From positions 1 to 48,544 of the IMG/VR virus record IMGVR_UViG_3300050138_000418: a DNA stretch of 48,544 nt; one strand, written 5' to 3'. Below, piece by piece: positions 1,298 to 43,261 of the stretch. A model generated the notes under the pieces. The model was given only the letters and a program-made list of their open reading frames with translations, had not been told where the DNA came from and did not search any database. Position 1 is the stretch's first letter. Every line of letters begins with the position of its first letter. The translations under genes and the position numbers were made by a program. The stretch is from a virus.

Positions 1298-1314
1298 TGG
1301 CACGGAGATTGCAT
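1298..1314 (+). promoter_or_regulatory. Sigma-54-like -24/-12 element before the 1325-3115 block
   Basis: TGGCAC, five bases, TTGCAT is an exact match to the sigma-54 promoter core. The -12 GC ends at 1312, so transcription would start at about 1324, directly at the ATG of the first gene (1325). That gene has no Shine-Dalgarno sequence, so the transcript could be leaderless. The element lies in the 59-base divergent gap between the terminase small subunit and the small-gene block. Confidence 0.6.
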
Positions 1315-1324
1315 ATTCCCGGGT

Positions 1325-1525
1325 ATGTCGCCCCGCTATGATTTCCGCTGCCCCCAATGTCAGCACAAAACTGTAGACTTGTATCTGCCAACGGGGGAAT
1401 CCGAAGCTCAGATGCGCGCCATCTGGCCCCACTGCACCTATTGTCATGTGGCGTTGGAGAAGTTGCCGGCGGCACCGAACTTCAAGGTGACGGGGTTTAA
1501 CGAAAAGAACGGATATTCTAAATGA
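1325..1525 (+). CDS. FmdB-like zinc ribbon protein
   Basis: 66 residues. It starts MSPRYDFRCPQCQ and has a second cysteine pair (CTYC), followed by the AAPNFKVTGFNEKNGYSK ending typical of the FmdB-family zinc ribbon (putative regulatory protein family). FmdB-like proteins are common in phages, but their function is not settled. I prefer the ATG at 1325 over that at 1292 because the upstream in-frame extension would run through the sigma-54-like element and because family members start just before the first CxxC. It is first in a chain of nine coupled genes. Confidence 0.8.
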   Translation: MSPRYDFRCPQCQHKTVDLYLPTGESEAQMRAIWPHCTYCHVALEKLPAAPNFKVTGFNEKNGYSK

Positions 1526-1749
1526 CCTGCGCGAAAACTAACTCGTCCTTTAAGACGGAATGGCCCGCCATCTTACGCGAAGACGGAAAACGTGTGGAGA
1601 TTATCTGTCCGCACGGAGTTGGTCATCCTGTCAAATCCCTCTCCAATCATTGGGACGAGACTTGGATGGGGGTTCATGGGTGCGACGGATGTTGTTCTTC
1701 AGCAGCATTTGCCCTAGCAGAAATACTTCACCAAAATGACTCTCGATAA
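1522..1749 (+). CDS. Hypothetical protein, Cys/His-rich
   Basis: 75 residues starting at an ATGA overlap with the FmdB-like gene. It contains CPHGVGHP and HGCDGCC, so metal binding is plausible, and the shape (short peptide, paired Cys/His) resembles small phage zinc proteins. No family recognised. The tight overlap on both sides and the lack of any competing frame support it as a real gene. Confidence 0.7.
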   Translation: MTCAKTNSSFKTEWPAILREDGKRVEIICPHGVGHPVKSLSNHWDETWMGVHGCDGCCSSAAFALAEILHQNDSR

Positions 1750-1963
1750 ACGGGTTGTCCTCCTCCGCTTGGATGGCATCCACCAAATTGTCGGCCTTGG
1801 CCCCGTCACCGCTTCCTTCCCGCCCGAACTCAAGTGGGACACGGGGTGGGCGACATTGAAAGTTGAACAACCTCGTTTTGTGGTGTATCAAGAACAGGAG
1901 TTCCCATGTTTGGCAGCCCCGCTCTCAACTCCCCCATCGATAACATTGGACTCCCCGGCATGA
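1736..1963 (+). CDS. Hypothetical protein
   Basis: 75 residues. The ATG overlaps the end of the preceding gene by 14 bases and the 3' end overlaps the next gene by 58 bases. The first 50 residues look like a small beta-rich domain (MTLDKRVVLLRLDGIHQIVGL). The last 20 residues lie in the overlap and are low-complexity. No family recognised. The large 3' overlap makes it less certain than its neighbours. Confidence 0.55.
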   Translation: MTLDKRVVLLRLDGIHQIVGLGPVTASFPPELKWDTGWATLKVEQPRFVVYQEQEFPCLAAPLSTPPSITLDSPA

Positions 1964-2148
1964 CGTGGCATGTCGCCGTCCAATACGTAGACATGAACAA
2001 TGACCCGGGGCACGGCATCGCCCAATTTGAACGTCTCCAAGATGTGTGGTTCTACATTCACGGGATGGCCCAACAGTTTCAACTCGATACGGTTGATATC
2101 CAGCGTATCGGACACCGACAATTTATGGAAAAGGATAGAGTCTCATGA
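1906..2148 (+). CDS. Hypothetical protein
   Basis: 80 residues with a good ribosome site (CAGGAG, five bases before the ATG). It contains an aromatic and acidic central part (MTWHVAVQYVDMNNDPGHG, then DVWFYIHG). Unknown function. It ends in an ATGA overlap with the HNH-like gene. A strong own ribosome site in the middle of a coupled series suggests higher expression than the gene before it. Confidence 0.7.
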   Translation: MFGSPALNSPIDNIGLPGMTWHVAVQYVDMNNDPGHGIAQFERLQDVWFYIHGMAQQFQLDTVDIQRIGHRQFMEKDRVS

Positions 2149-2360
2149 GAGATCGGAAAAGCGATAAGCACATGAAAGTCATCCCGGCTGGCCCGGGTCA
2201 AGTCCGCGATCATTTGGACGAGGACAAAAGCAACAATTCCCCGCTCAACCTCAAAGCCGTGGACCGAGGCGAGCATACCGCCAAGCATAACCGGACCCGA
2301 GAATTGGGGAAGCTCCGCAAGGCCTTGACGATGGTGAATCGGAAGGAACGGTTGTACTAA
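2145..2360 (+). CDS. Short HNH-like protein (C-terminal half of an HNH nuclease)
   Basis: 71 residues. The central motif DHLDEDKSNNSPLNL followed by GEHTAKHN matches the second half of the HNH nuclease motif (H-x-D/N-x-N-K-x-N-N-P-x-N-L ... EH-x-x-x-H). The conserved first histidine pair is present only as DH, and the protein is much shorter than the full HNH nucleases of this genome. Such mini-HNH proteins occur in many phages near terminases. It could be active, a packaging cofactor or a degraded homing nuclease. It starts at an ATGA overlap and ends at a TAATG junction. Confidence 0.65.
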   Translation: MRDRKSDKHMKVIPAGPGQVRDHLDEDKSNNSPLNLKAVDRGEHTAKHNRTRELGKLRKALTMVNRKERLY

Positions 2361-2494
2361 TGTATTTTGAACATGGCCGCTTCTGGGTGCTCTGGTCCCT
2401 CCGTTGTTGGGTGTGGCGCCCGAGTTTCCACTGCACCGGCTGTTGCTATTTTTGGTTTGAGTGGGGCCCGTTTGAGATAGGAGTCGCCCGATGA
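2360..2494 (+). CDS. Trp-rich 44-residue peptide
   Basis: A 44-codon frame joins its neighbours at both ends: a TAATG junction at 2360 and an ATGA overlap at 2491. It would otherwise leave the only gap in the block. The product (MYFEHGRFWVLWSLRCWVW...) has seven tryptophans and four cysteines, including a TGCC pair, and ends EIGVAR. Unknown function; it could be membrane-associated. The exact coupling at both ends is the main evidence for it. Confidence 0.65.
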   Translation: MYFEHGRFWVLWSLRCWVWRPSFHCTGCCYFWFEWGPFEIGVAR

Positions 2495-2757
2495 GTATTC
2501 TTGGCTTAGAGAAAACTCCCGTTGGCCCTATTGGCCGGGGACTTGAACTCCAAGGTCAATCTCGTGCAGGCCGTGCCTTCATTCGCTGGGAATCGCATTT
2601 CGCCTATCTCAACAGTGATGGGCAACCCCAAGAAGATATCTCCGCCCTCATTACCGCCACTGGATGCTTTCCTCCTCAAGAAAAAATGTGGCGCGGCGTC
2701 GAATGGTCACGGCAAGATTTTGACCCGTGCCTTTTCAAAGTGTGGTACCGCCGATGA
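2491..2757 (+). CDS. Hypothetical protein
   Basis: 88 residues, coupled by ATGA overlaps upstream (2491) and downstream (2754). It reads MSILGLEKTPVGPIGRG at the start and ends in an aromatic and basic segment (MWRGVEWSRQDFDP, then KVWYRR). A longer frame at 2522-2821 is rejected because it would break coupling and overlap two genes. No family recognised. Confidence 0.7.
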   Translation: MSILGLEKTPVGPIGRGLELQGQSRAGRAFIRWESHFAYLNSDGQPQEDISALITATGCFPPQEKMWRGVEWSRQDFDPCLFKVWYRR

Positions 2758-2918
2758 TTTCCATTACCCGCCTCCTGGAGTTGAAGAAGGACCTGGACTT
2801 GCTTCGTCAAGAGCGGGCTGAATTTGGCCCCTCGGTCTATTCCACTCTGACACGACATCTGGGCGAATACATCGACATCCTCGAAGACTACTTGCGCATC
2901 CAACAGGGGAGTGCCTAA
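2754..2918 (+). CDS. Small helical hypothetical protein
   Basis: 54 residues from the ATG at 2754 (ATGA overlap); the extension to 2727 would lie wholly inside the previous gene. The sequence is strongly helical with leucine heptads (ITRLLELKKDLDLLRQERAEF, then YIDILEDYL), typical of a short coiled coil that may dimerise. Function unknown. It ends at a TAATG junction. Confidence 0.7.
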   Translation: MISITRLLELKKDLDLLRQERAEFGPSVYSTLTRHLGEYIDILEDYLRIQQGSA

Positions 2919-3115
2919 TGTATCCTGACGTCCTGACCGACGCCTCCACCTCAACCTCGGGCTTTGTGACCCTCCATCCCGGCGAGTTCCACCAATACCG
3001 CGACTGCTGCTACTTCATGGACCTCTACGGCTCAATCTGGTATCTCCAGCCCACCGCTGATCCGGGGATGCCACTCGCCACTCTCCTGCTTGAGAAAAAG
3101 CCTTTTCAATTGTGA
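2918..3115 (+). CDS. Hypothetical protein, last gene of the block
   Basis: 65 residues, starting at a TAATG junction. It contains HPGEFHQYRDCCYFMDLYG and ends EKKPFQL. No family recognised. Immediately after its stop begins the hairpin-rich convergent gap, which probably ends transcription of this block. Confidence 0.7.
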   Translation: MYPDVLTDASTSTSGFVTLHPGEFHQYRDCCYFMDLYGSIWYLQPTADPGMPLATLLLEKKPFQL

Positions 3116-3333
3116 AAAAATTCTACGCACGCTCCCTACGGCCCCTGGTGTGCGTGCTGGCTGAGGGGGTGTCCCCCTACCTTGGTACCAGGATACATTG
3201 GTACGCTGGTACATAGATAACAACATAACAATGTACCAACGTACATGCATACATAGTACTTTGTATTGTAAAGTACTTGGACAAAAGAATAGCGTTACGT
3301 TGATGTCCGTAACGCTACATGAGAGGCAGGTAA
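3116..3333. other. Hairpin-rich convergent intergenic region
   Basis: This 218-base gap separates the ends of the plus block (3115) and minus block (3334) and holds no plausible gene. It contains at least five inverted repeats: GCACGC/GCGTGC (3127-3132 with 3152-3157), AGGGGG/CCCCCT (3164-3178), TGGTACAT/ATGTACCA (3207-3214 with 3231-3238), AGTACTTT/AAAGTACT (3255-3262 with 3270-3277) and TAGCGTTACG/CGTAACGCTA (3290-3299 with 3308-3317). The motif GGTAC or GTAC recurs throughout. A bidirectional terminator is the simplest role; an origin or protein-binding region is also possible. Confidence 0.75.
3290..3317. terminator. Perfect 10-bp stem hairpin, candidate bidirectional terminator
   Basis: TAGCGTTACG and its exact complement CGTAACGCTA flank the eight-base loop TTGATGTC. 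The hairpin lies between two convergent gene blocks, 16 bases before the end of the minus block. No T-run follows on either strand, so it is not a classic intrinsic terminator. Confidence 0.45.
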
Positions 3334-3546
3334 CTAGTCGCGCGGGTCGGGCGGGTCAAGGTCGCGGCGTATCTCCGCTTGCACTAAGCGGAGCGCCGCA
3401 TCAATGGCTTCATCGAGGTTTGCCATGCGTGTCGCAAAACCGCTTCCGATCTTCCACTTCGGCTCATCCGGCAACGCATCTTGCAACGCATTACTCGCGT
3501 CCACGAGTGCCGATTCTACCGCATCAAGCGGATGTTTGTTCGTCAT
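3334..3546 (-). CDS. Small helical hypothetical protein
   Basis: 70 residues from the ATG at 3546; GAGGGG lies at the right distance for this ATG rather than the adjacent one at 3549. It is alpha-helical and Ala/Asp/Leu-rich (DAVESALVDASNALQDALPDE; DEAIDAALRLVQAEIRRDL). It is the last gene of the 14-gene minus block. No family recognised. Confidence 0.65.
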   Translation of the reverse strand: MTNKHPLDAVESALVDASNALQDALPDEPKWKIGSGFATRMANLDEAIDAALRLVQAEIRRDLDPPDPRD

Positions 3547-3743
3547 CATCTCCCCTCAATCTGTTCACGAATATCCGCACAACGCTCCGCATGTTGGCGC
3601 AAGGTTTCCAGCCATTGCGGCGCAATACGGCCAGAAAGCGTTGTTACCAATCGTAACAAATCGGCTTGGGCAACGCGAAGCATCTCACTAATAAAGTCAA
3701 GGTCTTCATCTTTTAGGAGAAACGAGCGTTTGATGGTAGACAT
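3546..3743 (-). CDS. Small helical hypothetical protein
   Basis: 65 residues, starting at a TAAATG junction with the upstream gene and with GGAAAGGAT as a plausible ribosome site. It is predicted helical throughout (DLDFISEMLRVAQADLLRLV; WLETLRQHAERCADIREQ). Its stop overlaps the next start (ATGATGA). Function unknown. Confidence 0.65.
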   Translation of the reverse strand: MSTIKRSFLLKDEDLDFISEMLRVAQADLLRLVTTLSGRIAPQWLETLRQHAERCADIREQIEGR

Positions 3744-4070
3744 TTAGGCATCCTTTCCACCGGGATTGTTGTCGCAGCGATAGCCGACACCGAGCACTAG
3801 AATCCGCTTTTGCTTTTTAGGCGGCACCTCCACTAACCCGCAGGCTTGCAAAAATCGCTGCTCATCAAATCGCGGGTTGTATTCCTTGAAGAGCAGCAGG
3901 AATGCTTCGGCGGTTTGGACGGCACGACCGCGCGGAGTAATAGTATTGGCCCCGTCATTGTAGTCCCAACGTTCTGCCCAATCGGGACTAGAATTGTCCC
4001 AATGTCCCTCTAGAATACTCTTGACGATTTCCGCCGCTCGGATGAAGTGCTGCTTTGAAATGTTCGCCAT
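3744..4070 (-). CDS. Hypothetical protein
   Basis: 108 residues, MANISKQHFIRAAEIVKSILEGHWDN at the start. The pattern of a helical N-terminus, TPRGRAVQTAEAFLLLFKEYNPRFDEQRFLQACGL in the middle and a basic tail (PPKKQKR, then a GYRCDNNPGGKD end) resembles small proteins of many actinobacterial and proteobacterial phages that I know only as conserved hypotheticals. The ribosome site GAGGT precedes the ATG. Confidence 0.75.
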   Translation of the reverse strand: MANISKQHFIRAAEIVKSILEGHWDNSSPDWAERWDYNDGANTITPRGRAVQTAEAFLLLFKEYNPRFDEQRFLQACGLVEVPPKKQKRILVLGVGYRCDNNPGGKDA

Positions 4071-4079
4071 ATTTTACCT

Positions 4080-4292
4080 CTAACTTTCGTAATGATTGGT
4101 TTCACCGGGACGATGGCAATATCCCTCCGCACATAACGCATGCGCCATGCGACCATAGGCACCTTGTAATTGCCACGCGAGGCCCGAGTCGATAAGGTGC
4201 TGGAACAATTCGATAATCTGGTCCTTGTCTAAGGCGCCATTCTCATAGTCGATGATAGCGCCCACATGGTCGTAACGTTTTGATTTAAGCAA
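4080..4292 (-). CDS. Conserved phage hypothetical (DUF7417-like)
   Basis: 70 residues. I place the start at the TTG at 4292, six bases after a perfect AGGAGG; the ATG at 4313 has no ribosome site and lies inside the upstream gene. The core (YENGALDKDQIIELFQHLIDSGLAWQLQGAYGR) matches a family common in phages (I recall it as DUF7417) with unknown function. Overlap with the preceding gene is eight bases. Confidence 0.7.
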   Translation of the reverse strand: MLKSKRYDHVGAIIDYENGALDKDQIIELFQHLIDSGLAWQLQGAYGRMAHALCAEGYCHRPGETNHYES

Positions 4293-4455
4293 GGGTTTCC
4301 TCCTGGGTGACATGCTCAACGCTCACGCGTGTGATACCACTTCGGTGCGCTTCATATTCGAGATTGTTCTGGATTTCATTCGAGATGTATTCCACCGTCG
4401 GCGCATCGATATCACGGCTATCGGTTTCAACGGTCACAAGGAATAAGTGTTTCAT
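4285..4455 (-). CDS. Hypothetical protein, 56 residues
   Basis: A short frame from the ATG at 4455 to the TAA at 4285 fills an otherwise empty gap. It begins MKHLFLVTVETDSRDIDAPT and ends VTQEETLA, a likely beta-alpha-beta fold of the kind seen in small phage proteins. The start follows the upstream gene in a TAACATG junction that recurs twice more in this block, and its last codons contain the AGGAGG used by the next gene. No family recognised. Confidence 0.75.
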   Translation of the reverse strand: MKHLFLVTVETDSRDIDAPTVEYISNEIQNNLEYEAHRSGITRVSVEHVTQEETLA

Positions 4456-4456
4456 G

Positions 4457-4699
4457 TTAGACGCCTTTCAACATGGCTTTAAGCTCCGTCTTGATACGCC
4501 GTGCATCGTCTCCGCGCCACGTTGTCGCATTGCTCAAAAAGTAGAGCACAATAGACTTGGCATCATCGCAACCGTACGATTCATTGATACGGTTGAGCGT
4601 GCTCATGGCTGCTAGATACGGCACTGCCCCAAAATACACCTTAGACCAATGCTGACGAATATCTGCCGCTATTACAGACAACCCGCGTAATTCGCTCAT
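4457..4699 (-). CDS. Conserved phage hypothetical protein
   Basis: 80 residues. The pattern DIRQHWSKVYFGAVPYLAAM ... YGCDDAKSIVLYFLSNATTWRG ... RRIKTELKAMLK is a family I recognise from mycobacteriophages and other phages, where it remains of unknown function. AGGAGA lies eight bases before the ATG, within the end of the upstream gene. Stop and next start form TAACATG. Confidence 0.75.
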   Translation of the reverse strand: MSELRGLSVIAADIRQHWSKVYFGAVPYLAAMSTLNRINESYGCDDAKSIVLYFLSNATTWRGDDARRIKTELKAMLKGV

Positions 4700-4700
4700 G

Positions 4701-4865
4701 TTAGTATTCTCCTATCACTTCCCATTGTTTCCGAAGCTGATATTTGACCGCACGCGGGAATAACCGTTTCCAGGCGTGCCAGATAATAGCTTGGAATGTA
4801 GCGGGCGATTCTGCCACGCTGACCGCTGCTCGCGCATAACATTCAGCAAATACCCGAATTGGCAA
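4701..4865 (-). CDS. Hypothetical protein, 54 residues, TTG start
   Basis: A frame from the TTG at 4865 to the TAA at 4701 reads (M)PIRVFAECYARAAVSVAE and ends RKQWEVIGEY. Its helical, Ala/Arg/Trp-containing composition looks much more protein-like than the competing longer frame (4715-5041), which crosses two genes out of phase. The stop overlaps the TAACATG junction of the next gene and the last codons carry that gene's ribosome site. The TTG start has only a weak upstream site, so the start is uncertain. Confidence 0.6.
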   Translation of the reverse strand: MPIRVFAECYARAAVSVAESPATFQAIIWHAWKRLFPRAVKYQLRKQWEVIGEY

Positions 4866-4872
4866 GCCATTA

Positions 4873-5019
4873 TCAGTCTACTTTCACCGCGTAAATTTCG
4901 CCAAGATAACGGTGATAAGGTTTTGGCGTTTTGTGAATTGCTATTTGCATTGTTCGGGCTTCCACGGTCGCAATACAGCGACCTTCCGGCGACCAGTAGA
5001 GATACCACCAAGTAAGCAT
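4873..5019 (-). CDS. Hypothetical protein, 48 residues
   Basis: Begins MLTWWYLYWSPEGRCIATVEA and ends YLGEIYAVKVD. The ATG at 5019 is preceded by GAGGAGAT at seven bases and overlaps the stop of the membrane peptide gene (TGATG). The beta-rich sequence with a WSPEGR turn resembles small phage proteins that respond to host factors, but I cannot name a family. Confidence 0.75.
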   Translation of the reverse strand: MLTWWYLYWSPEGRCIATVEARTMQIAIHKTPKPYHRYLGEIYAVKVD

Positions 5020-5129
5020 CAAAATATCTCCTCAATGACATCCGTGATAAACCACACCGTAGACAAATACAACCCTGCCCACACCGCGCGCCACAGAAAA
5101 TACACCACAGCGTTTGTTAGCAGTTTCAT
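5019..5129 (-). CDS. 36-residue membrane peptide
   Basis: Frame from ATG 5129 to TGA 5019. The product (MKLLTNAVVYFLWRAVWAGL...) is one continuous hydrophobic helix rich in aromatic residues followed by an acidic end (DVIEEIF), so it probably inserts in the inner membrane. It overlaps both the upstream zinc-ribbon gene (ATGA) and the downstream gene (TGATG). Its C-terminal codons contain the GAGGAG of the next gene. Confidence 0.65.
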   Translation of the reverse strand: MKLLTNAVVYFLWRAVWAGLYLSTVWFITDVIEEIF

Positions 5130-5248
5130 TTAAGCGCCCATCCTGTCGTTTGATGTCCACACCGCGAGCAGACAAGTGATAGCTTATCCTTTTCATAAAA
5201 CCGGATGTATTCATGCCGACAGAATAGACGCAAGATTCTGGTCAACAT
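5126..5248 (-). CDS. 40-residue zinc-binding phage protein
   Basis: Frame from ATG 5248 to TGA 5126. It reads MLTRILRLFCRHEYIRFYEK and then CSRCGHQTTGWALK. The CRH...CxxCG...PGW/TGW pattern is a small conserved phage family that I recognise by sight, probably a zinc finger (C-H and C-C ligands). It follows the upstream gene in a TAACATG junction and ends in an ATGA overlap. The longer frame in another phase (5032-5214) is rejected because it disrupts both couplings. Confidence 0.75.
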   Translation of the reverse strand: MLTRILRLFCRHEYIRFYEKDKLSLVCSRCGHQTTGWALK

Positions 5249-5249
5249 G

Positions 5250-5597
5250 TTAAACATCCAATCGGGAAACCGGCGCCCACGTCACCAGCACACTCGACTG
5301 ATGATTCTGGACCTTAATATCACCGGCCAAGTGGATGATAGACTGCAGGTCGTTTGATGTGGCGAGGATTTCGATAACTGCGCCAGCTTCCACTTTGCCT
5401 AACCATAGACCCGAACCATACAGAATGGTTGCGCCTGAAAAGTAGCGGGAAATGAGCACCAGCAAGCCGGGTCTATCCTCCGTATATAGCCGATAGACAA
5501 TCGCCGTGTTCAATGCCTTGCGTTCTTGTTCTCGCGCGAGAATGGCGCTATCCCATGCGCCAGGACCGATGCCGGGAATTGTTTGATTAGTGTTCAT
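5250..5597 (-). CDS. Hypothetical protein
   Basis: 115 residues beginning MNTNQTIPGIGPGAWDSAI. The second half is beta-rich (GAVIEILATSNDLQSIIHLAGDI, then SSVLVTWAPVSRLDV). AAAGGAT precedes the ATG. No family recognised. It is the second-largest gene of the early minus block. Confidence 0.7.
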   Translation of the reverse strand: MNTNQTIPGIGPGAWDSAILAREQERKALNTAIVYRLYTEDRPGLLVLISRYFSGATILYGSGLWLGKVEAGAVIEILATSNDLQSIIHLAGDIKVQNHQSSVLVTWAPVSRLDV

Positions 5598-5603
5598 CGT
5601 ATT

Positions 5604-5657
5604 CTATCCTTTGATAATGAGACGTTTACCGTCAATGACGATGGTATTGTCAAACAT
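5604..5657 (-). CDS. Possible 17-residue peptide
   Basis: A very short frame (MFDNTIVIDGKRLIIKG) has a strong ribosome site (AGGGAGAA, seven bases before the ATG) and fills the gap between two genes. Its last codons provide the AAAGGAT used by the next gene. It could be a real micropeptide or simply a translated leader that couples the flanking genes. Confidence 0.35.
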   Translation of the reverse strand: MFDNTIVIDGKRLIIKG

Positions 5658-5660
5658 TGG

Positions 5661-5768
5661 CTAATTCTCCCTAACTGTGGATAGCAGATACCACGCAAAA
5701 CCGAGACTCCCGAATACGACGATAAAACCTAAGGCGATGAGAGCAACATCGAATACGGTCGTATTCAT
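5661..5768 (-). CDS. 35-residue single-pass membrane peptide
   Basis: Frame from ATG 5768 (ATGA overlap with the upstream gene) to TAG 5661. The product starts MNTTVFDVALIALGFIVVFG and continues as a hydrophobic helix to about residue 29, with a short charged end (STVREN). Probably an inner-membrane peptide. GAAGGGGAAG lies upstream as ribosome site. Confidence 0.65.
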   Translation of the reverse strand: MNTTVFDVALIALGFIVVFGSLGFAWYLLSTVREN

Positions 5769-5959
5769 TTCCCGTCTTCCCCTTCATGGATGGCGCGTTG
5801 TTCACACAGGACATCACAGTAATAGTCTGTCGGGTCCGTTGGCAGGGGTTGGCCGCAGAATCGGCACACTGGATAATCAGGTTCCGCGCCATCATCGGAG
5901 ATACCGTCACAATAGCGTGGGTCAGTGCCTGGGTCGCGGTAATCGTATTTTGAACTCAT
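5765..5959 (-). CDS. Small zinc-finger-like protein, first gene of minus early block
   Basis: 64 residues from the ATG at 5959. The N-terminus is acidic (SSKYDYRDPGTDPRYCDGI), followed by CRFCGQPLP and YYCDVLC, which form a likely zinc ribbon related to those that end in a cytidine-rich C-x2-C...C-x3-C pair. The start was chosen because the longer frame to 6031 runs through the promoter region. No Shine-Dalgarno is visible; a sigma-54-like element ends 14 bases upstream, so the message may be leaderless. Confidence 0.75.
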   Translation of the reverse strand: MSSKYDYRDPGTDPRYCDGISDDGAEPDYPVCRFCGQPLPTDPTDYYCDVLCEQRAIHEGEDGK

Positions 5960-5972
5960 GCCATACCATATA

Positions 5973-5987
5973 GCAAATGATGGTCCA
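5973..5987 (-). promoter_or_regulatory. Sigma-54-like element (weak), minus early block
   Basis: On the minus strand TGGACC, five bases, TTGCTA keeps the essential GG and GC at ten-base spacing but differs from TGGCAC at two positions. The -12 C is 14 bases upstream of the ATG at 5959, the same geometry as the better matches elsewhere. Confidence 0.4.
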
Positions 5988-6101
5988 ACGTGCCAATCGT
6001 TTAGAATCAACAACATGCAGCCATCTACCATTTGGAATTGTGTTCCATTCTGTCAAAACGAGACACGATTATGGAACATGTGCCGTTCTGTTACACAAAG
6101 T

Positions 6102-6115
6102 AGACAGCACTGTCT
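6102..6115. promoter_or_regulatory. Palindromic operator-like site
   Basis: AGACAG-CA-CTGTCT is a perfect 14-base palindrome in the divergent control region, about 13 bases upstream of the sigma-54-like pair. It looks like a binding site for a dimeric regulator; no regulator gene is identified. Confidence 0.45.
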
Positions 6116-6127
6116 CGAAATAGGACA

Positions 6128-6162
6128 CGGCACAACCCTTGCATATGGCATGGGTTTTGCTT
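6128..6162 (+). promoter_or_regulatory. Two tandem sigma-54-like elements
   Basis: CGGCAC-N5-TTGCAT (6128-6144) has one mismatch to the core and is followed directly by TGGCAT-N5-TTGCTT (6146-6162). No start codon lies 13-17 bases downstream, so these would give a transcript with a long leader that covers the repeat cluster before the gene at 6420. Confidence 0.5.
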
Positions 6163-6246
6163 ATAGTTCATGTCCGCACTATACATACCTTAACCTATTA
6201 TCCTGCGCCTGCCTATAGGGTCCAGCCTATCGCCCCTTTGACCCGG

Positions 6247-6392
6247 GCTGTCATATGCCCCGTTGTCGTAGAGCGGTTGTCGTAGAGAGTTCCCGAGCGG
6301 GAAGATGAGGTCATTTTCTACCAAATTCCCTGAAATTATTCCCGAGCGGGAAGACGGGTTGTCGTAGAGCGATTGAATCGAGCTGTCATATG
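6247..6392. repeat. Cluster of short direct repeats and hairpins
   Basis: GCTGTCATATG occurs at 6247-6257 and 6382-6392. GTTGTCGTAGAG occurs at 6262, 6276 and 6358. The self-complementary unit TTCCCGAGCGGGAAGA occurs at 6290-6305 and 6339-6354. The units are arranged almost as a mirror about 6320 in a gene-free region. Iteron-like binding sites for a replication initiator, operators, or an RNA leader element are all possible. Confidence 0.6.
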
Positions 6393-6406
6393 GCATGGGG
6401 TATGCA
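6391..6406 (+). promoter_or_regulatory. Sigma-54-like element before the replication block
   Basis: TGGCAT, five bases, ATGCAA; one base off TTGC in the -12 part. The C of the GC lies 15 bases before the ATG at 6420, the first gene of the rightward block. Confidence 0.45.
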
Positions 6407-6419
6407 AGGTCAGACGAGT

Positions 6420-6791
6420 ATGGATTACCGAACACCCTGCGTAGTTGACCATCCCCATATGAATGTGGCCTATCGTTATCAATGTGCCATATGCGGAAAA
6501 ACCATTAGTCCCGTTCAATGCTCTGGTCCATTTTCTGATGCCTATGATTGTCCTATTCATAGTCCTGATTGTACAAATATGGGCAACATCTCTGCCGATC
6601 TTGAAGCCATTGATACGGCCTACCGTCAATATACGGATGCCATCGAGGGGCCATCAATGGTAGACTATGCTTCAGACTACGAAGCCTATCAAACTCTTAA
6701 AAGAGCAACTCTGCACTTAAAGGTAGCCGCAAATAATCTCTTACAACGGCTTCGTACAGGGACCCGTCCCGGGAAGGGTGATGATATATGA
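6420..6791 (+). CDS. Hypothetical protein with N-terminal zinc-finger-like motif
   Basis: 123 residues from the ATG at 6420 (MDYRTPCVVDHPHMNVAYRY), then CAICGKTISPVQCSG and CPIHSPDC, which suggest a metal-binding N-terminal half. The C-terminal half is helical (DLEAIDTAYRQYTDAIEG; ATLHLKVAANNLLQRLRTG). The longer frame from 6390 is rejected because its start lies in the promoter-like element. First gene of the rightward block. Unknown function; an early regulator is conceivable. Confidence 0.7.
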   Translation: MDYRTPCVVDHPHMNVAYRYQCAICGKTISPVQCSGPFSDAYDCPIHSPDCTNMGNISADLEAIDTAYRQYTDAIEGPSMVDYASDYEAYQTLKRATLHLKVAANNLLQRLRTGTRPGKGDDI

Positions 6792-7072
6792 AATGGCACT
6801 ATTCGTCCGAGAATCTTGCAGGAAATACCCATGCGGCAACAGGGTGGATTAACGAGCATCATCCTGAGTGGGATGTAGTAGCAATGGAATTTAATGGTGG
6901 GGGCTATACAACGGTAGTTCACCGAAGCCCACAACCAGATACCCCGTCAAAACGATGGACCGAGATTTTGTGTCAGAAGTGTGGGGGAAATGGTGTCATT
7001 AAAATTACCAATGGGGTATCAGAATGCCCCCGCTGTGGGGGCCGGTGTTATGACCCGTCCGGTCAAGTTTAA
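6788..7072 (+). CDS. Zinc ribbon protein (DnaJ-type CxxCxG)
   Basis: 94 residues, starting at an ATGA overlap. The C-terminus carries CQKCGGNGVIKITNGVSECPRCGGRCY, two CxxCxG-type knuckles like half of the DnaJ central zinc domain; the N-terminal 60 residues are an uncharacterised domain (WINEHHPEWDVVAMEFNGGGYTTVVHR). Such small proteins are frequent in phages and may act as metal-dependent chaperone-like or nucleic-acid adaptors. Function not established. Confidence 0.7.
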   Translation: MKWHYSSENLAGNTHAATGWINEHHPEWDVVAMEFNGGGYTTVVHRSPQPDTPSKRWTEILCQKCGGNGVIKITNGVSECPRCGGRCYDPSGQV

Positions 7073-7149
7073 CGGCCAAAAAACTGGACACAAATGCAGT
7101 TAAGGTCTATTAAAGTGAACAAGTTACAGCGGCCAAAGAAGCGGCCATA

Positions 7150-7166
7150 TGGCATGGCGTTTGCAA
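7150..7166 (+). promoter_or_regulatory. Sigma-54-like element before 7181 gene
   Basis: TGGCAT, five bases, TTGCAA. The surrounding sequence (CATATGGCATGGCGTTTGCAA; 7147 onward) closely resembles the elements at 6146 and 6391. The C lies 17 bases before the ATG at 7181. A strong GAGAGGGGG ribosome site sits between element and ATG, which does not fit transcription starting at the usual distance. Confidence 0.45.
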
Positions 7167-7180
7167 TCGAGAGGGGGCAT

Positions 7181-7456
7181 ATGAAACCGTTAATGCTCGC
7201 AGGCTGGCTCATGGCGTTTGGCGGTGATGCCGTGACCACAGATATCGGGCTCCAACAACAGGCACGCGAAGTCACCTTGCCCACGCAGAATCGGGTGATG
7301 CTCCAAGGGATGTTGGCGGGGCAAGCAGGCTTTGGTTTGTGGGCGTATAAGCGGTGGCATGTCACCCATCCGAAGCTGGCGAAAACGATCTATATTGTGG
7401 GCGTGGCCACGCATGGTGGGGCGACAATTTGGAACCTCACGCAAATTGTCAAATGA
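7181..7456 (+). CDS. Small membrane protein
   Basis: 91 residues from the ATG at 7181, chosen for the GAGAGGGGG ribosome site. It has a hydrophobic N-terminus (MLAGWLMAFGGDAVTTDIGL), a middle hydrophobic part (MLQGMLAGQAGFGLWAYKRW) and a third hydrophobic stretch (TIYIVGVATHGGATIWNL), so two or three membrane passes. It resembles small phage membrane proteins of the DUF5658-like type (GGDAVTTDIGL near a DAxTT motif), though I am not certain. Ends in an ATGA overlap. Confidence 0.65.
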   Translation: MKPLMLAGWLMAFGGDAVTTDIGLQQQAREVTLPTQNRVMLQGMLAGQAGFGLWAYKRWHVTHPKLAKTIYIVGVATHGGATIWNLTQIVK

Positions 7457-7674
7457 AACTATTCCACCGTTCACGAAAAGAGAAGCCCTTGACGATTGAA
7501 GAAGTCAAACGTATTGCCCGCGCCCCCATTCTCGTCAACCATTATGGCGGGCGCTCGTGGGGTGGGGCGATGCCGTTGCCAGATGACACAACGACTAGAT
7601 TTGAGTATGATGCGTGGAGACATCTGCATAACCAGCATCGGTTGCCGAAACGTTCTGATGAGGAGGGAGATTAA
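7453..7674 (+). CDS. Hypothetical protein
   Basis: 73 residues from the ATGA overlap at 7453; the longer frame to 7354 would overlap the membrane protein by 100 bases. It starts MKLFHRSRKEKPLTIEEVKR and ends LPKRSDEEGD, and has a central VNHYGGRSWGGAMPLPDD. No family recognised. Confidence 0.65.
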   Translation: MKLFHRSRKEKPLTIEEVKRIARAPILVNHYGGRSWGGAMPLPDDTTTRFEYDAWRHLHNQHRLPKRSDEEGD

Positions 7675-7784
7675 TGACTCGAACAGATGTCTTGAACAAT
7701 TGGTATAGCACGTTTACCAACTTACGAGAACATGAAATACCTTTGTCCGAATGGCTTACATATTGGAAAGGACGCCGCCCATGA
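7674..7784 (+). CDS. 36-residue hypothetical peptide
   Basis: Frame starting at a TAATG junction (7674) and ending in an ATGA overlap (7781) with the next gene. GAGGAGGGAG precedes the ATG. The product begins MTRTDVLNNWYSTFTNLREH and ends LTYWKGRRP. Exact coupling at both ends and a strong ribosome site support it. Confidence 0.7.
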   Translation: MTRTDVLNNWYSTFTNLREHEIPLSEWLTYWKGRRP

Positions 7785-7996
7785 CCCGCATCTTCTGGTG
7801 GTCGCTGATGGAGCAATGCGAGCAGTTAGCGAAAATCCCATCTACCTTGGATCCGATTCATAGCTATACAATGGCAAGCAAGCCGTATCGGCAAGCAGCC
7901 TTTGCCAATATCAAAGGCGGCGTAGCAAAAATGAAGTATGCCGCTGACCCCGGTTGGGGCTATCATGCCCAGCAGTCAGGGATGAGTAAGCGATGA
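7781..7996 (+). CDS. Hypothetical protein upstream of RepA-like ATPase
   Basis: 71 residues from the ATGA overlap at 7781. It begins MTRIFWWSLMEQCEQLAKIP and ends GWGYHAQQSGMSKR. The last codons overlap the start of the RepA-like gene (ATGA at 7993). It may be an accessory of the replication ATPase, but no domain is recognised. Confidence 0.65.
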   Translation: MTRIFWWSLMEQCEQLAKIPSTLDPIHSYTMASKPYRQAAFANIKGGVAKMKYAADPGWGYHAQQSGMSKR

Positions 7997-9036: not shown

Positions 9037-9060
9037 TCTCACTCCAATAGGGTGTGAGAC
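9036..9060 (+). terminator. Hairpin after RepA-like gene
   Basis: GTCTCAC (9036-9042) and GTGAGAC (9054-9060) form a perfect 7-bp stem right at the stop codon. No T-run follows, so it is either a factor-dependent terminator, an mRNA-stabilising hairpin or an operator. Confidence 0.45.
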
Positions 9061-9114
9061 CGAACTTAAGTTGTTGTAAACACAAAGGTTAACCTGAGTT
9101 GGACACCCCCTTAC

Positions 9115-9134
9115 TCGTGTTTGTTAGAACACGA
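9115..9134. promoter_or_regulatory. Inverted repeat before virion-like gene pair
   Basis: TCGTGTT (9115-9121) and AACACGA (9128-9134) flank a six-base loop, 77 bases upstream of the ATG at 9212. The 175-base gap from 9037 also contains AACTTAAGTT. A hairpin or operator controlling the next two genes is likely; I see no clear promoter. Confidence 0.4.
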
Positions 9135-9475: not shown

Positions 9476-10513
9476 ATGGCCGCACGAACCAAATTGTTGA
9501 TGGGTGGGGGAAGTGGGGGCTCAATTCGTCCCAAGCCTGTGCGGCAGAAGGGACTGCCCTATTGGGATGCGTCTGATGGTGGAGGCATCGTGCACACGAC
9601 TCCGCCAGATAACCTGCAAATTCCTCAAGGATTTACGCGGGATTTCTGGCGTGGTGATATTGGCGGAGTGATGTTGCCGAAGACACCCCCGTGGGTGGAT
9701 GGAGCGAACTCGACCCCACCGGAAATGACTATGAGCTTTTTACTTCCTAAATATGTACAGTTTGGAACACCCGTTATTGACAGTTTCCTGACCGCACATG
9801 CGATTCGCTACCACAGCCACTTTCATCTGGACCGGGGCACCGCCGTTAATACCCTCGGCCTGCAAGGTGCACTCGATCTCATCGCGTACATCCAGTCCTG
9901 GGGGTTTTATACGAGCTTTTGGCTCTGTGGCACCGGTGATGATCGGTCAGGCGGTTGGCCAATGTTGCAGTCCATGATTGAGCCATTTCTGGAAGCCTTG
10001 ATTGCACAGGGACTTGCAGACAAATCTATTGCGCTAGTAGGAGAGGAGTTGAATACGGGGTGTGTGCCGGGGAATGGGCCCAATGGGCTGGATGGGCTGA
10101 TCAATGGGGTGTGTGCACTCACCAATCCGGTGGGCATTCCCACATGGCTGCATTTCACGCAGAATGTGCCGTCGTGGCAGGCACCTGGACAGGACAGTGT
10201 GGCATGGTGGGGACAATTTGTGGGGAAGCTCAAGGGGTTGTGTTCCCAATTGAATCCTGATGACTCAGCCGGTGCACAGGGCGCTCACCTCTGGGATGCC
10301 CGGTGGCGATTGGCGCAGGCAAGTTTGGACTATCGAGTGGTGGCATTTGAAATTATGGCCACCGCTCAACTATATGGGAGATGTACGGAAGAGTACGGAT
10401 GCTTGCGCGGCCTTGAGAACTTGTACTGTCCAAGTGGGGCACCAGCACCTAATGCGCCAGCGGTCGCGGGGTTTGGCAACGGAGCGCGTTTTCCAGATGG
10501 GTCGGCGATTTAG
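9476..10513 (+). CDS. Putative TIM-barrel hydrolase-like phage protein
   Basis: 345 residues. After a Gly-rich N-terminus (LLMGGGSGGSIRPKP) the protein shows alternating strands and helices (GALDLIAYIQSWGFYTSFWL; ALIAQGLADKSIALVGEELNTGC; VGIPTWLHFTQN), the spacing expected of a glycoside-hydrolase-type (beta/alpha)8 barrel. Adjacent acidic residues E190/E191 at the end of a strand, plus HSHFHLDRG, could be active-site residues. I know similar proteins from phage genomes only as unnamed tail- or virion-associated proteins. Its place among replication genes, on the strand opposite to all other structural genes, is odd. Confidence 0.6.
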   Translation: MAARTKLLMGGGSGGSIRPKPVRQKGLPYWDASDGGGIVHTTPPDNLQIPQGFTRDFWRGDIGGVMLPKTPPWVDGANSTPPEMTMSFLLPKYVQFGTPVIDSFLTAHAIRYHSHFHLDRGTAVNTLGLQGALDLIAYIQSWGFYTSFWLCGTGDDRSGGWPMLQSMIEPFLEALIAQGLADKSIALVGEELNTGCVPGNGPNGLDGLINGVCALTNPVGIPTWLHFTQNVPSWQAPGQDSVAWWGQFVGKLKGLCSQLNPDDSAGAQGAHLWDARWRLAQASLDYRVVAFEIMATAQLYGRCTEEYGCLRGLENLYCPSGAPAPNAPAVAGFGNGARFPDGSAI

Positions 10514-10583
10514 GCATGAGGTTTGCAGTAGTAGTGAGTGCGCGCAGTCGGTGAGTTAACTCGGTTTTCAGGAGACGCAACAT

Positions 10584-11423
10584 ATGGGTGCGAGACCGTC
10601 GTCGTTCAAGAAGGGCGGGGGATTTCTTAATGAAGTCGATGCCCTCATTACAGGAATGACCTTTGAATCAGGGGACACTTACCCGATCAAGAAGGGGCCG
10701 CGAAAGGGAGAGGAGTTCACGCCGCTATCATTGACCGTGAGTGCACGGGTGGATGGCGCGGAAGAGGATGTGTCGAAGCGGCTGCTGATTGCGGACGCCT
10801 CACGGTTTGGGGAGGTGAGTGCGGATGGCACAACTCTTGCGACCCCAGATGGGCAGACCATCAGTGCCTTCAGTGAGGCTGGGATCTTCATCAATTCCTT
10901 GGTCAACCCGATTGAAGGGGGCGATGGTTTCCCCGAGAGTCGGTTGGGCGAGAATGATGACCCGGAAATCACCTATCAACCGGTGGTGGGGACCCGGGTG
11001 CGCTTCATTCAGCAGGAGCGGATGGGCAAGCGGGCGGGCACACAGACCGCCAAGGATGGCCGCGTGTGGCCACTGAAGGATTTGGTGGTGGCAAAGGTGT
11101 ATGATCTGCCGCAGGCGGCAGGGAAGGCGAATGGCAAGGCAGCGAAGCCAGCGGGTAAGACTGCAGCTAAAGCCAAGACTGTGGATACTGATGAAGTGGC
11201 GGTCGAGGCCCTGATCCGGTATGCCCAGGCATCAGGTGGGACGATTGCGAAGTCGAAGATCCTCATGAAGGTGCTGACGGATAAGGCGTTCAGCAACGAC
11301 CCCGAGGGGCGGAATACGGTAGCCACGCTGTTAACGGGTAAGAACAGTGACACGTATCTGGGTGGGCTTGATGGCGTAGCGTATGACAGTGAAGAGCAGG
11401 TTGTAAGTCTCATCGAGGCCTAG
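10584..11423 (+). CDS. Putative ssDNA-binding replication protein
   Basis: 279 residues. Residues 1-170 are beta-rich with a basic N-terminus (GARPSSFKKGGGFLNEVDALITGM) and may hold an OB-type fold. A Lys/Ala-rich linker (GKANGKAAKPAGKTAAKAK, about 175-195) leads to a C-terminal winged-helix-like domain (VEALIRYAQASGGTIAKSKILMKVL). Similar proteins occur in phages next to Cas4-like nuclease and Sak4-like ATPase genes, as here, which supports a role in recombination or replication. ssDNA binding is an inference. AGGAGAC precedes the ATG. Confidence 0.55.
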   Translation: MGARPSSFKKGGGFLNEVDALITGMTFESGDTYPIKKGPRKGEEFTPLSLTVSARVDGAEEDVSKRLLIADASRFGEVSADGTTLATPDGQTISAFSEAGIFINSLVNPIEGGDGFPESRLGENDDPEITYQPVVGTRVRFIQQERMGKRAGTQTAKDGRVWPLKDLVVAKVYDLPQAAGKANGKAAKPAGKTAAKAKTVDTDEVAVEALIRYAQASGGTIAKSKILMKVLTDKAFSNDPEGRNTVATLLTGKNSDTYLGGLDGVAYDSEEQVVSLIEA

Positions 11424-11441: not shown

Positions 11442-11504
11442 TGACCGTGTGGGTTCCGAGCGGATTCTTCGGGGCCAGTTTTATCCGTAAAGGATTGATT
11501 TTAC

Positions 11505-21375: not shown

Positions 21376-22152
21376 TTAGAGGATACGGGTGTGGATAAAC
21401 TGTTTGTTAGCTTTCTTCTCTCGAAACCAACCTCCGCAAGAATTACAGCAATAGCGCTGATACGTGTTTGTGGTGGCCCGATGGATGCCACGCATCTGAA
21501 TGTGATTGGAGCCGCATCGTGGACAAGCCCCGCCTCCACCAAAGAGCTGCCGGTGGATATGACTGCTCATGTAGGGCTGGAGCTTGAGGAAGACCTTCTC
21601 AAGCAAGAGAATGTCCCCCTTGTTGTAGTTTACCATGGTCCGAACGGCCTTGGCATCTCCTTGTAACACCTTGAGCCATAAGCCTTTAGGAGTAGCCTTC
21701 TTGTGTCCACACTTCAGAATGCCGCCCAAATAGTCGAGGGAATTTGAGTTGAAGAGGAAACGTCCCCGAGCGACCTTGAGGGTATCAATCTTGGGGATAG
21801 GCGGGAGAGGCGACAATCCCTGAATCAGCATGCGAGTTTCCGCATACGGGAGGTCGAAGGCATCCCCATTGTGGGCAATGATAGCGTCTGCGCTCGACAG
21901 CACCTCGTGGAGATGCTTCACCACATACCAATCATCGTGGGGGTCAGCCTTAAACCGCTTCGTGTCATCCAGAAGAGACACCGCGTGCACCCCAGGCTTG
22001 CCGAGCAGTTTCCAGGCAAAACTAATGAGATGGCGCTCCTTTTGGATATTGTCGGAGTGGATGTAATCGTTGTGCAGGAGGGAGAAAACGGCGACTAAAT
22101 TGAACGAAGTCTCGATGTCGAGCAGAACGATGCGAGGCTCATGGTTTATCAC
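21376..22152 (-). CDS. RNase H-fold 3'-5' exonuclease with C-terminal zinc ribbon
   Basis: 258 residues from a GTG start. DEDDy exonuclease residues are visible: LLDIETS (D12/E14), AHNGDAFD (D100), and YNKGD (Y176/D180), as in the YprB-like/predicted RNase H exonuclease family. A zinc ribbon follows (C210, C213, C235/C236, C239). It could degrade DNA or RNA ends. It lies oddly in the lysis block rather than with replication genes, and has its own sigma-54-like element 13 bases upstream and no Shine-Dalgarno, so it may be expressed separately. Confidence 0.8.
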   Translation of the reverse strand: MINHEPRIVLLDIETSFNLVAVFSLLHNDYIHSDNIQKERHLISFAWKLLGKPGVHAVSLLDDTKRFKADPHDDWYVVKHLHEVLSSADAIIAHNGDAFDLPYAETRMLIQGLSPLPPIPKIDTLKVARGRFLFNSNSLDYLGGILKCGHKKATPKGLWLKVLQGDAKAVRTMVNYNKGDILLLEKVFLKLQPYMSSHIHRQLFGGGGACPRCGSNHIQMRGIHRATTNTYQRYCCNSCGGWFREKKANKQFIHTRIL

Positions 22153-22159: not shown

Positions 22160-22561
22160 CTAAAGCAACAAATGTGCCAACTCAATGGCGCGGCCCTTGA
22201 CCTGTCGGGACCATTTGGTCGTCAGCAAGTCGGCGGAGGCGCCGTTCCAATCGTCGGCTTGGGCGAGATTCAGGAAGGTATGGAACTGTGCCAAATCCGT
22301 AATCCCGAGATTGAAGACGAGTTCGACAAAGACTTCTTGCCGGATAGGGGTCAGGCCCGCCACCCACGGGAGGACGCGCTGGAGGTCGGTGTGTGCCTCC
22401 AGGACATCACTCTGGAAGATGTCTTCAACCTGGGCAAGCGTCAGGCCGTTATCGGTGAGATTATGCCCCACCCCAATGGTGATTTTGCCCACCGTATCGA
22501 CATAGGGCTTGAGGCGGAGTCCCTCATGTCGGGTGATGCGCTGTTCAAGCGTTTCGGCCAT
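22160..22561 (-). CDS. T4-type lysozyme (GH24 endolysin)
   Basis: 133 residues. HEGLRLKPYVDTVGKITIGVGHNL carries the E13-x8-D22-x5-T28 catalytic pattern of T4 lysozyme (E11/D20/T26). It cleaves peptidoglycan between MurNAc and GlcNAc to release progeny. No signal peptide is visible, so a holin or other membrane protein would release it; two such genes lie upstream. Family members are 145-165 residues, so this is a compact form. Confidence 0.93.
   Translation of the reverse strand: MAETLEQRITRHEGLRLKPYVDTVGKITIGVGHNLTDNGLTLAQVEDIFQSDVLEAHTDLQRVLPWVAGLTPIRQEVFVELVFNLGITDLAQFHTFLNLAQADDWNGASADLLTTKWSRQVKGRAIELAHLLL
22165..22179 (-). promoter_or_regulatory. Sigma-54-like element before exonuclease gene
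   Basis: On the minus strand TTGGCAC-N5-TTGCTTT is a full consensus match. It lies inside the last codons of the lysozyme gene (LAHLLL end). The C of the GC is 13 bases before the GTG at 22152, the same spacing as at 1298-1325. Confidence 0.6.
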
Positions 22562-27401: not shown

Positions 27402-27418
27402 TGGCACGATTCTTGCTT
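27402..27418 (+). promoter_or_regulatory. Sigma-54-like element in antisense orientation
   Basis: TGGCAC, five bases, TTGCTT is an exact consensus match in the only gap of this region (27372-27416), but it faces against the surrounding late genes. No plus-strand gene follows. It may produce an antisense transcript or act as a binding site only. Confidence 0.45.
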
Positions 27419-36866: not shown

Positions 36867-37477
36867 TAGGAGGTCTTTCCGGCCTTCCCCGCTTTGGGGT
36901 TCTGCACCTTGACATTCCAGCGCGGATCAATGGTCATCACGCCTCCGGGGTCCACATCAGGCCGATCTAAGAGGTATTTTGGGTCGATTCCTTCGCCTTT
37001 GCCGTTGACCGGAGACGCGATGCCCTGGAGCACCATTGCACCCCGGGCATGACCCACAACCAAGTGTGTGCCCGGGTCCTCGATCCGTTTGCGCATCTCT
37101 GGCACGAATCTTGCGAGATAGGAATCAATAGATTCGCCATTCGGAGCTGAGACATCGGGAGTGCGGATCAGCTCTTTCATCTGAGGAAGCGAGTCTGTGA
37201 CCTTGGTGCCCGCGAGGTCGCCCGTATTCCAATCCCTGATATTTGGCTCTAATTTGGGCGCCATTCCGAGGTGTTTACCTACTATCTCGGCGGTTTGGGC
37301 CGCTCTAGGAAGGTCCGAGGCGGAGAAGGTGTCGGGGCGCAAGGACAACTGCGACCCCGCATCATGGGCTTGCTGCTCACCCTTGGGCGTTAGCGGAACT
37401 GGAAGCCAGCCGCGTAGCCGTTCTTCTGTTCCGCCCTTATTGAGTGCGGACGCCCCATGTCGAATGTAAATCAGCAC
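36866..37477 (-). CDS. Histidine phosphatase (phosphoglycerate-mutase superfamily)
   Basis: 203 residues from the GTG at 37477, five bases after GGAGGG. LIYIRHGASALN is the RHG catalytic motif, followed by SDLPRAAQTAEIVG, an acidic DWNTGDLAG and VVGHARGAM (second catalytic His). These residues form the complete active site of the branch 1 histidine phosphatases. The substrate is unknown. The gene lies between head completion protein genes, coupled to the adaptor gene by a TAATG junction, which is unusual. It may dephosphorylate a virion or host component. Confidence 0.85.
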   Translation of the reverse strand: MLIYIRHGASALNKGGTEERLRGWLPVPLTPKGEQQAHDAGSQLSLRPDTFSASDLPRAAQTAEIVGKHLGMAPKLEPNIRDWNTGDLAGTKVTDSLPQMKELIRTPDVSAPNGESIDSYLARFVPEMRKRIEDPGTHLVVGHARGAMVLQGIASPVNGKGEGIDPKYLLDRPDVDPGGVMTIDPRWNVKVQNPKAGKAGKTS

Positions 37478-42283: not shown

Positions 42284-42299
42284 TGGCTGATTCCTTTAC

Positions 42300-43169
42300 T
42301 TATTCCCCGTAGGCGCCGCCGTGGGACTTGTACGACTCCACGAGCGCGTCACCGAAGGATTTGTCGTTGTTATAATCGATCTTTTTGCCGCCCGGGCCGA
42401 CGACACTGCGATCCCGACCGCTCGGAACCCTTCGCTGCCGTTCGACTTCGGACTGCGTGACTTTGCGACGAGCCGGTTCAAAGAAATCCTCGACGTAGGT
42501 TTTCACAAACTCGGGGATCACCGTCTCATCACCCTGATCATAGCGGGCCAGGAATTGTGGATCGGATTCGCACTCATTGACAAAGGCGAGTTGGACGCGC
42601 CGAGCCTGTCGATCTGACAGGGTGCCCCCAAATTCCTTCGTCACCGCATTGACCACCGCCGTGAGGGTCTGTTTCCCCTGTCTCCGGTATTGCTGCTCCG
42701 AGGCTTCTTTCATCGACGCCGCTTGTTCGCGCAGTTCCTTGATGGCCTCAATGTCCTCTTTGGACAAATTGGCGAGATCGGGAAAATACTGCCCAAACTG
42801 TCGGCGAATCGTCTCCGCATCGACTTCATCCTTGGACTGCGGGTTGACCCCGGCCAACGCCTGAACCCGACGCTTTTCTGCGGCCAGCTCACCCTGATAG
42901 GTAGCGACTTGCCGCTCGTAGTCCTGCCGCTGCCGTCTTTCCTTTTGCAAATCCGCGAGAACGCCGCGATACCGATCATCCTCAGCTTTTTGCGCAGGAG
43001 CCGGAACCTGGGTGGACGATTGGGGGGCTTTCCCGGAATCACTGCCCGCAGGAGTTGGTGCGCTGTCGTTGGGAGCGCCCTGCGGTTCATTTGGTGCACC
43101 ACCGCCACCCGAACCATCACCGGGTTCGTCCAGCAGAGGAAACATCATTTCAACAGACTTCATAGCCAT
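42300..43169 (-). CDS. Capsid scaffolding protein
   Basis: 289 residues. An acidic, disordered Gly/Pro/Ser-rich N-terminus (EPGDGSGGGGAPNEPQGAP) is followed by a long coiled coil (GVLADLQKERRQRQDYERQVATYQGELAAEKRR), more helices and a basic C-terminus (FFEPARRKVTQSEVERQRR), as in P22-type scaffolds that bind capsid via a basic end. It lies directly upstream of the capsid gene. GGAGT precedes the ATG. Confidence 0.8.
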   Translation of the reverse strand: MAMKSVEMMFPLLDEPGDGSGGGGAPNEPQGAPNDSAPTPAGSDSGKAPQSSTQVPAPAQKAEDDRYRGVLADLQKERRQRQDYERQVATYQGELAAEKRRVQALAGVNPQSKDEVDAETIRRQFGQYFPDLANLSKEDIEAIKELREQAASMKEASEQQYRRQGKQTLTAVVNAVTKEFGGTLSDRQARRVQLAFVNECESDPQFLARYDQGDETVIPEFVKTYVEDFFEPARRKVTQSEVERQRRVPSGRDRSVVGPGGKKIDYNNDKSFGDALVESYKSHGGAYGE

Positions 43170-43209
43170 CGTTTACTCCATTTTTCGCCAGCGGAAGCAC
43201 TGGAACGAT

Positions 43210-43226
43210 TGGCACACGTATTGCAT
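43210..43226 (+). promoter_or_regulatory. Sigma-54-like element 1 before HNH gene
   Basis: TGGCAC-N5-TTGCAT, exact match, in the 106-base divergent gap between the scaffold gene and the HNH gene. No start codon lies at the usual distance downstream; the second element is closer to the gene. Confidence 0.55.
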
Positions 43227-43244
43227 GCCCTCCAATTTCTAGTG

Positions 43245-43261
43245 TGGCACAGTCCTTGCAT
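43245..43261 (+). promoter_or_regulatory. Sigma-54-like element 2 before HNH gene
   Basis: TGGCAC-N5-TTGCAT, exact match, ending 17 bases before the ATG of the HNH gene (43276). Its context TTGCATATT...GGGTAT resembles that of the element at 1298. Confidence 0.6.

Follow-up and report, generated by a model that had tools for sequence, protein, structure and literature searches.

Transcripts from σ54 (RpoN) promoters begin 12 bases after the C of the −12 element, and σ54 polymerase stays in a closed complex until an activator acts on it. Early phage genes are generally assumed to be transcribed with the housekeeping sigma factor or by a polymerase of the phage itself. A consensus for σ54 promoters was reportedly given by Barrios in 1999. 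The σ54 consensus given in PMC12316311 is TGGCACN5-7TTGCT. Where rpoN is known to affect phage infection, the explanation given was glutamine and RpoS or, alternatively, flagella (PMC8744999, PMC11877940). No report of σ54 promoter arrays in phages was found in the open literature, with subscription journals mostly outside the search, and the novelty of such arrays is provisional.

Here, we analyzed a viral sequence of 48,544 nucleotides (IMG/VR record IMGVR_UViG_3300050138_000418, hereafter the window) and its relatives (together, the window family), in which a similar element occurs repeatedly. The element shares with bacterial σ54 promoters the TGGCAC-N5-TTGC core, the Y, R and W positions around it, the fixed spacing and a mostly intergenic location. 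However, the phage copies are clustered, tandem and, in other phages, convergent, they are accompanied by no encoded activator, and in the window family they lie at start codons. Like the promoters of T7-like RNA polymerases, the element is repeated, directional and found genome-wide before phage genes, but T7-like promoters change with the phage polymerase, whereas this element does not differ between unrelated phages and corresponds to the site of a host factor. A leaderless phage message is known in the lambda cI transcript from PRM, where, as predicted for the window family, the start codon is at or beside the transcript start. In contrast to lambda, which uses σ70 there, the window has several early genes and a σ54-type element.

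The element in the window and its relatives

An earlier note on this DNA claimed seven exact matches to TGGCAC-N5-TTGC, and all seven are present (1298, 10826, 27402, 37100, 43210 and 43245 on the plus strand, 22179-22165 on the minus strand), compared to 0.16 expected (300 dinucleotide shuffles, maximum 2). This comparison with composition-matched shuffles had been set beforehand as a test. When TGGCAC and TTGC were separated by spacers of 0–20 bases other than 5, each spacer gave 0 or 1 match, so that only the 5-base spacer was enriched, and a reversed-letter control pattern had no matches in the window record. The position-weight matrix scan proposed in the same note, for which we used a matrix trained on unrelated phages only, detected 10 sites scoring at least 17 bits (0.12 expected) and 14 sites at 10 bits (1.7 expected). 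σ70 consensus sites were not enriched at window positions 1-20000 (16 versus 17.0 expected). These observations confirm the set of σ54-like elements in the window, which is listed together with the associated genes in Table 1.

Table 1. Copies of the element in the window and genes associated with them.
Feature	Position	Strand	Score (bits)	Remarks
Element TGGCACGGAGATTGC	1298..1312	+	21.8	−12 C 13 bases before ATG 1325
Gene, 66 aa Zn-ribbon-like protein	1325..1525	+		First of an early block; no Shine-Dalgarno
Weak element TGGACCATCATTTGC	5973..5987	-	<10	Two mismatches; 14 bases before ATG 5959
Gene, 64 aa	5765..5959	-		First of minus-strand early block
Element CGGCACAACCCTTGC	6128..6142	+	12.4	First of close pair
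Element TGGCATGGGTTTTGC	6146..6160	+	21.1	Second of close pair with 6128
Element TGGCATGGGGTATGC	6391..6405	+	12.4	−12 C 15 bases before ATG 6420
Gene, 123 aa	6420..6791	+		First of main plus-strand early block; no Shine-Dalgarno
Element TGGCATGGCGTTTGC	7150..7164	+	17.4	−12 C 17 bases before ATG 7181
Early gene	7181..7456	+		Shine-Dalgarno-like GAGAGGGGG, outside the predicted σ54 transcript
Degenerate element AGGCATGAGGTTTGC	10512..10526	+	14.2	Upstream of gene 10584-11423; absent from the earlier list
Exact match	10826..10840	+	17.6	Within gene 10584-11423; G after TTGC; possibly chance
Element TGGCACATTTGTTGC	22165..22179	-	21.8	−12 C 13 bases before GTG 22152
DNA polymerase exonuclease subunit gene	21376..22152	-		No Shine-Dalgarno
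Element TGGCACGATTCTTGC	27402..27416	+	23.8	Between two minus-strand genes; antisense to late block; syntenic in three relatives
Exact match	37100..37114	+	20.6	Within minus-strand gene; G after TTGC; possibly chance
Element TGGCACACGTATTGC	43210..43224	+	22.8	First of tandem pair; between conserved minus-strand late families 6 and 7; syntenic in five relatives
Element TGGCACAGTCCTTGC	43245..43259	+	20.3	Second of tandem pair; −12 C 17 bases before ATG 43276
HNH endonuclease gene	43276..43746	+		Under tandem pair; PF13392
One-mismatch match	46952..46966	+	19.4	Antisense within terminase gene; possibly chance

Among the sites that had been described as one-mismatch forms, 6128, 6146, 7150 and 46952 indeed differ at one position, while 6391 has two mismatches; the minus-strand site at 5987 was rightly called weaker, and the six distances given between the −12 C and a start codon (13–17 bases) were correct. 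Two or three of the matches, located inside genes, may have arisen by chance, possibly including 10826 and 37100, because in both TTGC is followed by G rather than A or T.

We further checked letters outside the search pattern, i.e., Y before TGGCAC, R after TGGCAC and W after TTGC. In the window family, R followed TGGCAC in 44 of 49 sites and A or T followed TTGC in 42 of 49. Among the matches listed for other viral loci (398 elements), Y preceded TGGCAC in 80%, G followed it in 69%, and A or T followed TTGC in 86%. The extended element thus follows the σ54 consensus outside the searched letters. Its placement, mostly in noncoding sequence ahead of genes of the same direction, also fits this promoter class.

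Searches of IMG/VR with the terminase and capsid proteins placed the window in a lineage of uncultured phages whose capsid proteins are 63–90% identical. Ten relatives were read nearly whole, with genes predicted by a simple codon-based caller and proteins grouped by BLASTP. We identified 49 TGGCAY-N5-TTGC sites in nine genomes (the window and eight relatives), 33 of which were intergenic, although noncoding DNA accounts for 12.5% of the sequence. The element was found at syntenic places in eight of the ten relatives, in agreement with the conservation expected of a functional site in the earlier note. The other two (G013 and G014, contigs of L032 and L033) had no elements, and none at 12 bits by the matrix. 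These two genomes belong to the same structural lineage and have a different early region; they are possibly phages of hosts without σ54.

Several syntenic places were recognized. Eight genomes including the window have a site in the divergent region, which separates the first late gene (family 10) from the early block and holds the 1298 element. Another site is upstream of family 30 in G002, G006 and G008, and the fragment G001 has one at its corresponding end; at this place, the window has the degenerate copy at 10512 and the relatives have full matches. As in the window, relatives also have an element upstream of the minus-strand block that includes the exonuclease gene starting at 22152. 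Six genomes, the window among them, have a site between late families 6 and 7, often as a tandem pair, and four, again with the window, have one between family 11 and the late gene that follows. At these two places, the element is directed against the late genes. Named relatives showed no DNA match and only distant capsid and terminase similarity. A search for the host with the terminase in 84,980 genomes had no match, and neither did the DNA polymerase as a query in viral contigs.

In the window, 27402 and the 43210/43245 pair lie at conserved places and face the late structural genes in antisense. The only predicted target that can be named for such sites is, in the window phage, the HNH gene at 43276, and RNA downstream of them showed no consistent or conserved structure. 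In Pseudomonas phage PAK_P3, early antisense RNA covers late structural genes (PMC4933390). The window sites resemble this arrangement in their antisense direction. PAK_P3, however, contains only three TGGCAY-N5-TTGC sites, none of which is close to an antisense RNA among those annotated within 50 kb of its start, and no link to σ54 was found in PMC4933390 for this phage. The parallel is suggestive only.

Start codons and predicted leaderless messages

ATG-started open reading frames in the window family peak 13–14 bases after the −12 C, with 13 observed versus 2.5 expected (p 2e-6, a value that ignores shared descent). A Shine-Dalgarno (SD) word was present in 2 of 15 genes starting at an element compared to 201 of 327 (61%) conserved genes (p 0.0003), a contrast that is somewhat inflated, as the 15 genes were judged real by eye and the gene caller favors SD starts. 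The starts at 1325 (with homologues) and 22152 (with a homologue) agree in alignment. Since σ54 transcripts begin 12 bases after the −12 C and these start codons are 13–17 bases after it, the predicted leader has 1–5 bases. The coincidence of the start-codon peak with the predicted transcript start, together with the depletion of SD words, suggests that early messages in the window family are likely leaderless. The start-codon peak is weak in unrelated phages with arrays, so placement at start codons is mainly a trait of the window family.

The idea of host σ54 combined with leaderless messages, put forward in the earlier note, is therefore supported by the consensus at unsearched positions, the start-codon peak and the SD depletion. 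That note also raised an objection, namely that strong ribosome sites at 7181 and 43276 would lie upstream of the transcript start. For 43276 this is not fatal, because the element 35 bp further upstream would place AAAGGG in the leader. GAGAGGGGG at 7181 is still upstream of the predicted start; this is not fatal either, because 7181 is within an operon, where transcripts that start further upstream could cover it. The objection is thus answerable.

The element in unrelated phages

The element is common to unrelated phages, well beyond the window phage. In IMG/VR, tandem pairs with elements 15–45 bases apart were detected at at least 120 loci versus 1 with reversed letters, and convergent pairs with 3–8 bases between them at at least 120 loci versus 0. 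Among the matches listed, the G+C content of contigs with arrays ranged from 32 to 65%. Elements around arrays were intergenic in 121 of 138 cases, and the first gene had the same direction in 69 of these 121, again among the matches listed. Convergent pairs among the listed matches preferred gaps of 4 and 7 bases (TTGC-N4-GCAA); such pairs could be compact two-way promoters. A stricter tandem pattern was present in 38 of the 120 viral loci among the matches listed. In bacterial and archaeal genomes (257 Gb), it occurred in 8 stretches, including at least two simple repeats and one phage tail contig. This difference indicates that arrays are characteristic of viruses. Tandem and convergent elements are present in a very large number of unrelated viral contigs (L070-L189, L279-L337). 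In contig IMGVR_UViG_3300049489_000321 (L108, L198; 147530 bases), 26 elements were located within the first 16 kb.

Named phages with clearly clustered elements, T5-like phages of Vibrio among them, infect Vibrio and Pseudomonas, both of which have RpoN; their clusters are located in early or terminal-repeat DNA. In Vibrio phage D254, all 7 sites are at 105–110 kb of the 117 kb genome, beside A1/A2-like pre-early genes; Vibrio phage D419 has 6 of 6 sites at 103–107 kb and Vibrio phage VCPH 6 of 7 sites at 116–120 kb. Vibrio phage phi 3 (KP280063.1) has sites at 4415, 7337, 112784 and 115706; these form two pairs with the same separation of 108,369 bases, which is the pattern that one copy per terminal repeat would give. 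Pseudomonas phage Ab02 (LN610572.1) contains four sites in each annotated 1165-base terminal repeat (1-1165, 92684-93848) and three more in a noncoding stretch at 80.8–81.0 kb, and the same seven distinct sites are present in Pseudomonas phage PAK_P1, with elements at 55.4–55.6 kb. The terminal-repeat elements of phi 3 and Ab02, two unrelated phages, possibly lie on the first-entering DNA. No elements were found in T5, the Erwinia T5-like phage KEY, T4, lambda, phiKZ, Gordonia phage GordTnk2 and Aeromonas phage AhMtk13b, and Arthrobacter phage Jasmine had one. When the consensus was used as a BLAST query, phages of Gordonia and Arthrobacter were each matched at a single intragenic place, which was taken as chance, and Pseudoalteromonas phage Slicky01 and Aeromonas phage MQM1, which were matched by one array locus, lacked an exact element.

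Possible readers of the element

We consider it likely, from their sequence, location, conservation and distance to start codons, that the elements are −24/−12 promoters for host σ54 RNA polymerase. Host σ54 polymerase would then drive the early genes rightward from divergent control regions and the exonuclease gene leftward. At the lead genes the transcript would begin 1–5 bases before the start codon and be leaderless; where elements are paired, the upstream member would give a message with a leader, and antisense sites between late structural genes would probably produce early antisense transcripts. The promoters would be opened by a host enhancer-binding protein; a phage-encoded RpoN or σ54 activator domain was found in none of 34 records, in which positive controls were detected. 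Several features argue against promoters: dense arrays leave little room for one activator site per promoter, few strict tandem pairs occur in bacteria, and several exact matches are inside genes. In addition, we know of no bacterial σ54 promoters that form convergent pairs 3–7 bp apart.

The arrays, the convergent dyads of fixed geometry and the almost complete lack of strict tandem pairs in bacteria, all unlike ordinary σ54 promoters, could instead mean that the element serves an RNA polymerase or regulator encoded by the phage, as its promoter or operator, and merely resembles a σ54 site. A private phage element of this kind was the main alternative in the earlier note; it is weakened by the presence of the same element in unrelated phages, with specificity unchanged from 32 to 65% G+C and the σ54 consensus kept at unsearched positions, and by the finding that the clearly clustered named carriers all infect σ54 hosts. 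Moreover, BLASTP of all open reading frames, from which distant homologues may escape, revealed no protein family common to unrelated carriers (the widest, DNA polymerase, was in 8 lineages), which makes a conserved host factor the simplest reader of the element. PF00940 had no match in 30 records, and neither did its control; no single-subunit RNA polymerase was found among the window genes scanned. We regard a phage-encoded reader as unlikely.

Because closed complexes of σ54 polymerase need an activator to proceed, the holoenzyme might also be bound mainly as a stable closed complex, making the elements a titrating decoy, a roadblock or a placeholder on incoming DNA rather than promoters. 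Dense and overlapping copies, some of which face late genes in antisense or lie at a distance from any gene, would suit such a function, but the start-codon peak and the missing SD words in the window family suggest that transcription matters. This explanation appears quite improbable to us, although a decoy or roadblock role is less so for dense arrays.

Chance, or a codon-usage artifact of a large genome, might account for two or three window sites inside genes, two of them without A or T after TTGC, but is very remote as an explanation and is ruled out for the whole set by the shuffles (0.16 expected), the spacer control, the matrix from unrelated phages, synteny, the zero counts in G013 and G014, and reversed-letter counts of 1 and 0 versus at least 120 each. 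A hairpin or RNA element was rejected, as the N5 letters of the convergent dyad arms were not complementary by eye.

With host σ54 polymerase as the preferred reader, the spread of the element suggests that viruses widely borrow a host σ54 switch that they were not known to use. If many phages use σ54, infection would depend on an activator-requiring factor tied to nitrogen, envelope and stress signals; this could explain some rpoN effects on infection, and phage success would hinge on host physiology. A tentative and rather doubtful extension is that a broad range of unrelated virulent phages place their first-expressed DNA, namely control regions and terminal repeats, under host σ54 arrays, on which silent closed complexes would be fired by infection-triggered host stress activators (e.g., of the phage-shock type); if so, an alarm of the host itself would control early phage transcription. 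The use of σ54 by phages is directly testable, since Pseudomonas aeruginosa is a host of PAK_P1 and its relatives.

Two other features of the window were observed. Its family A DNA polymerase gene (15716-17737, plus strand) and the separate polymerase exonuclease subunit gene (21376-22152, minus strand) are on opposite strands. The first gene of the late block (534-1265, minus strand), which is kept in 10 of 11 genomes compared and has weak Zn-ribbon and HTH matches, is a candidate late regulator.
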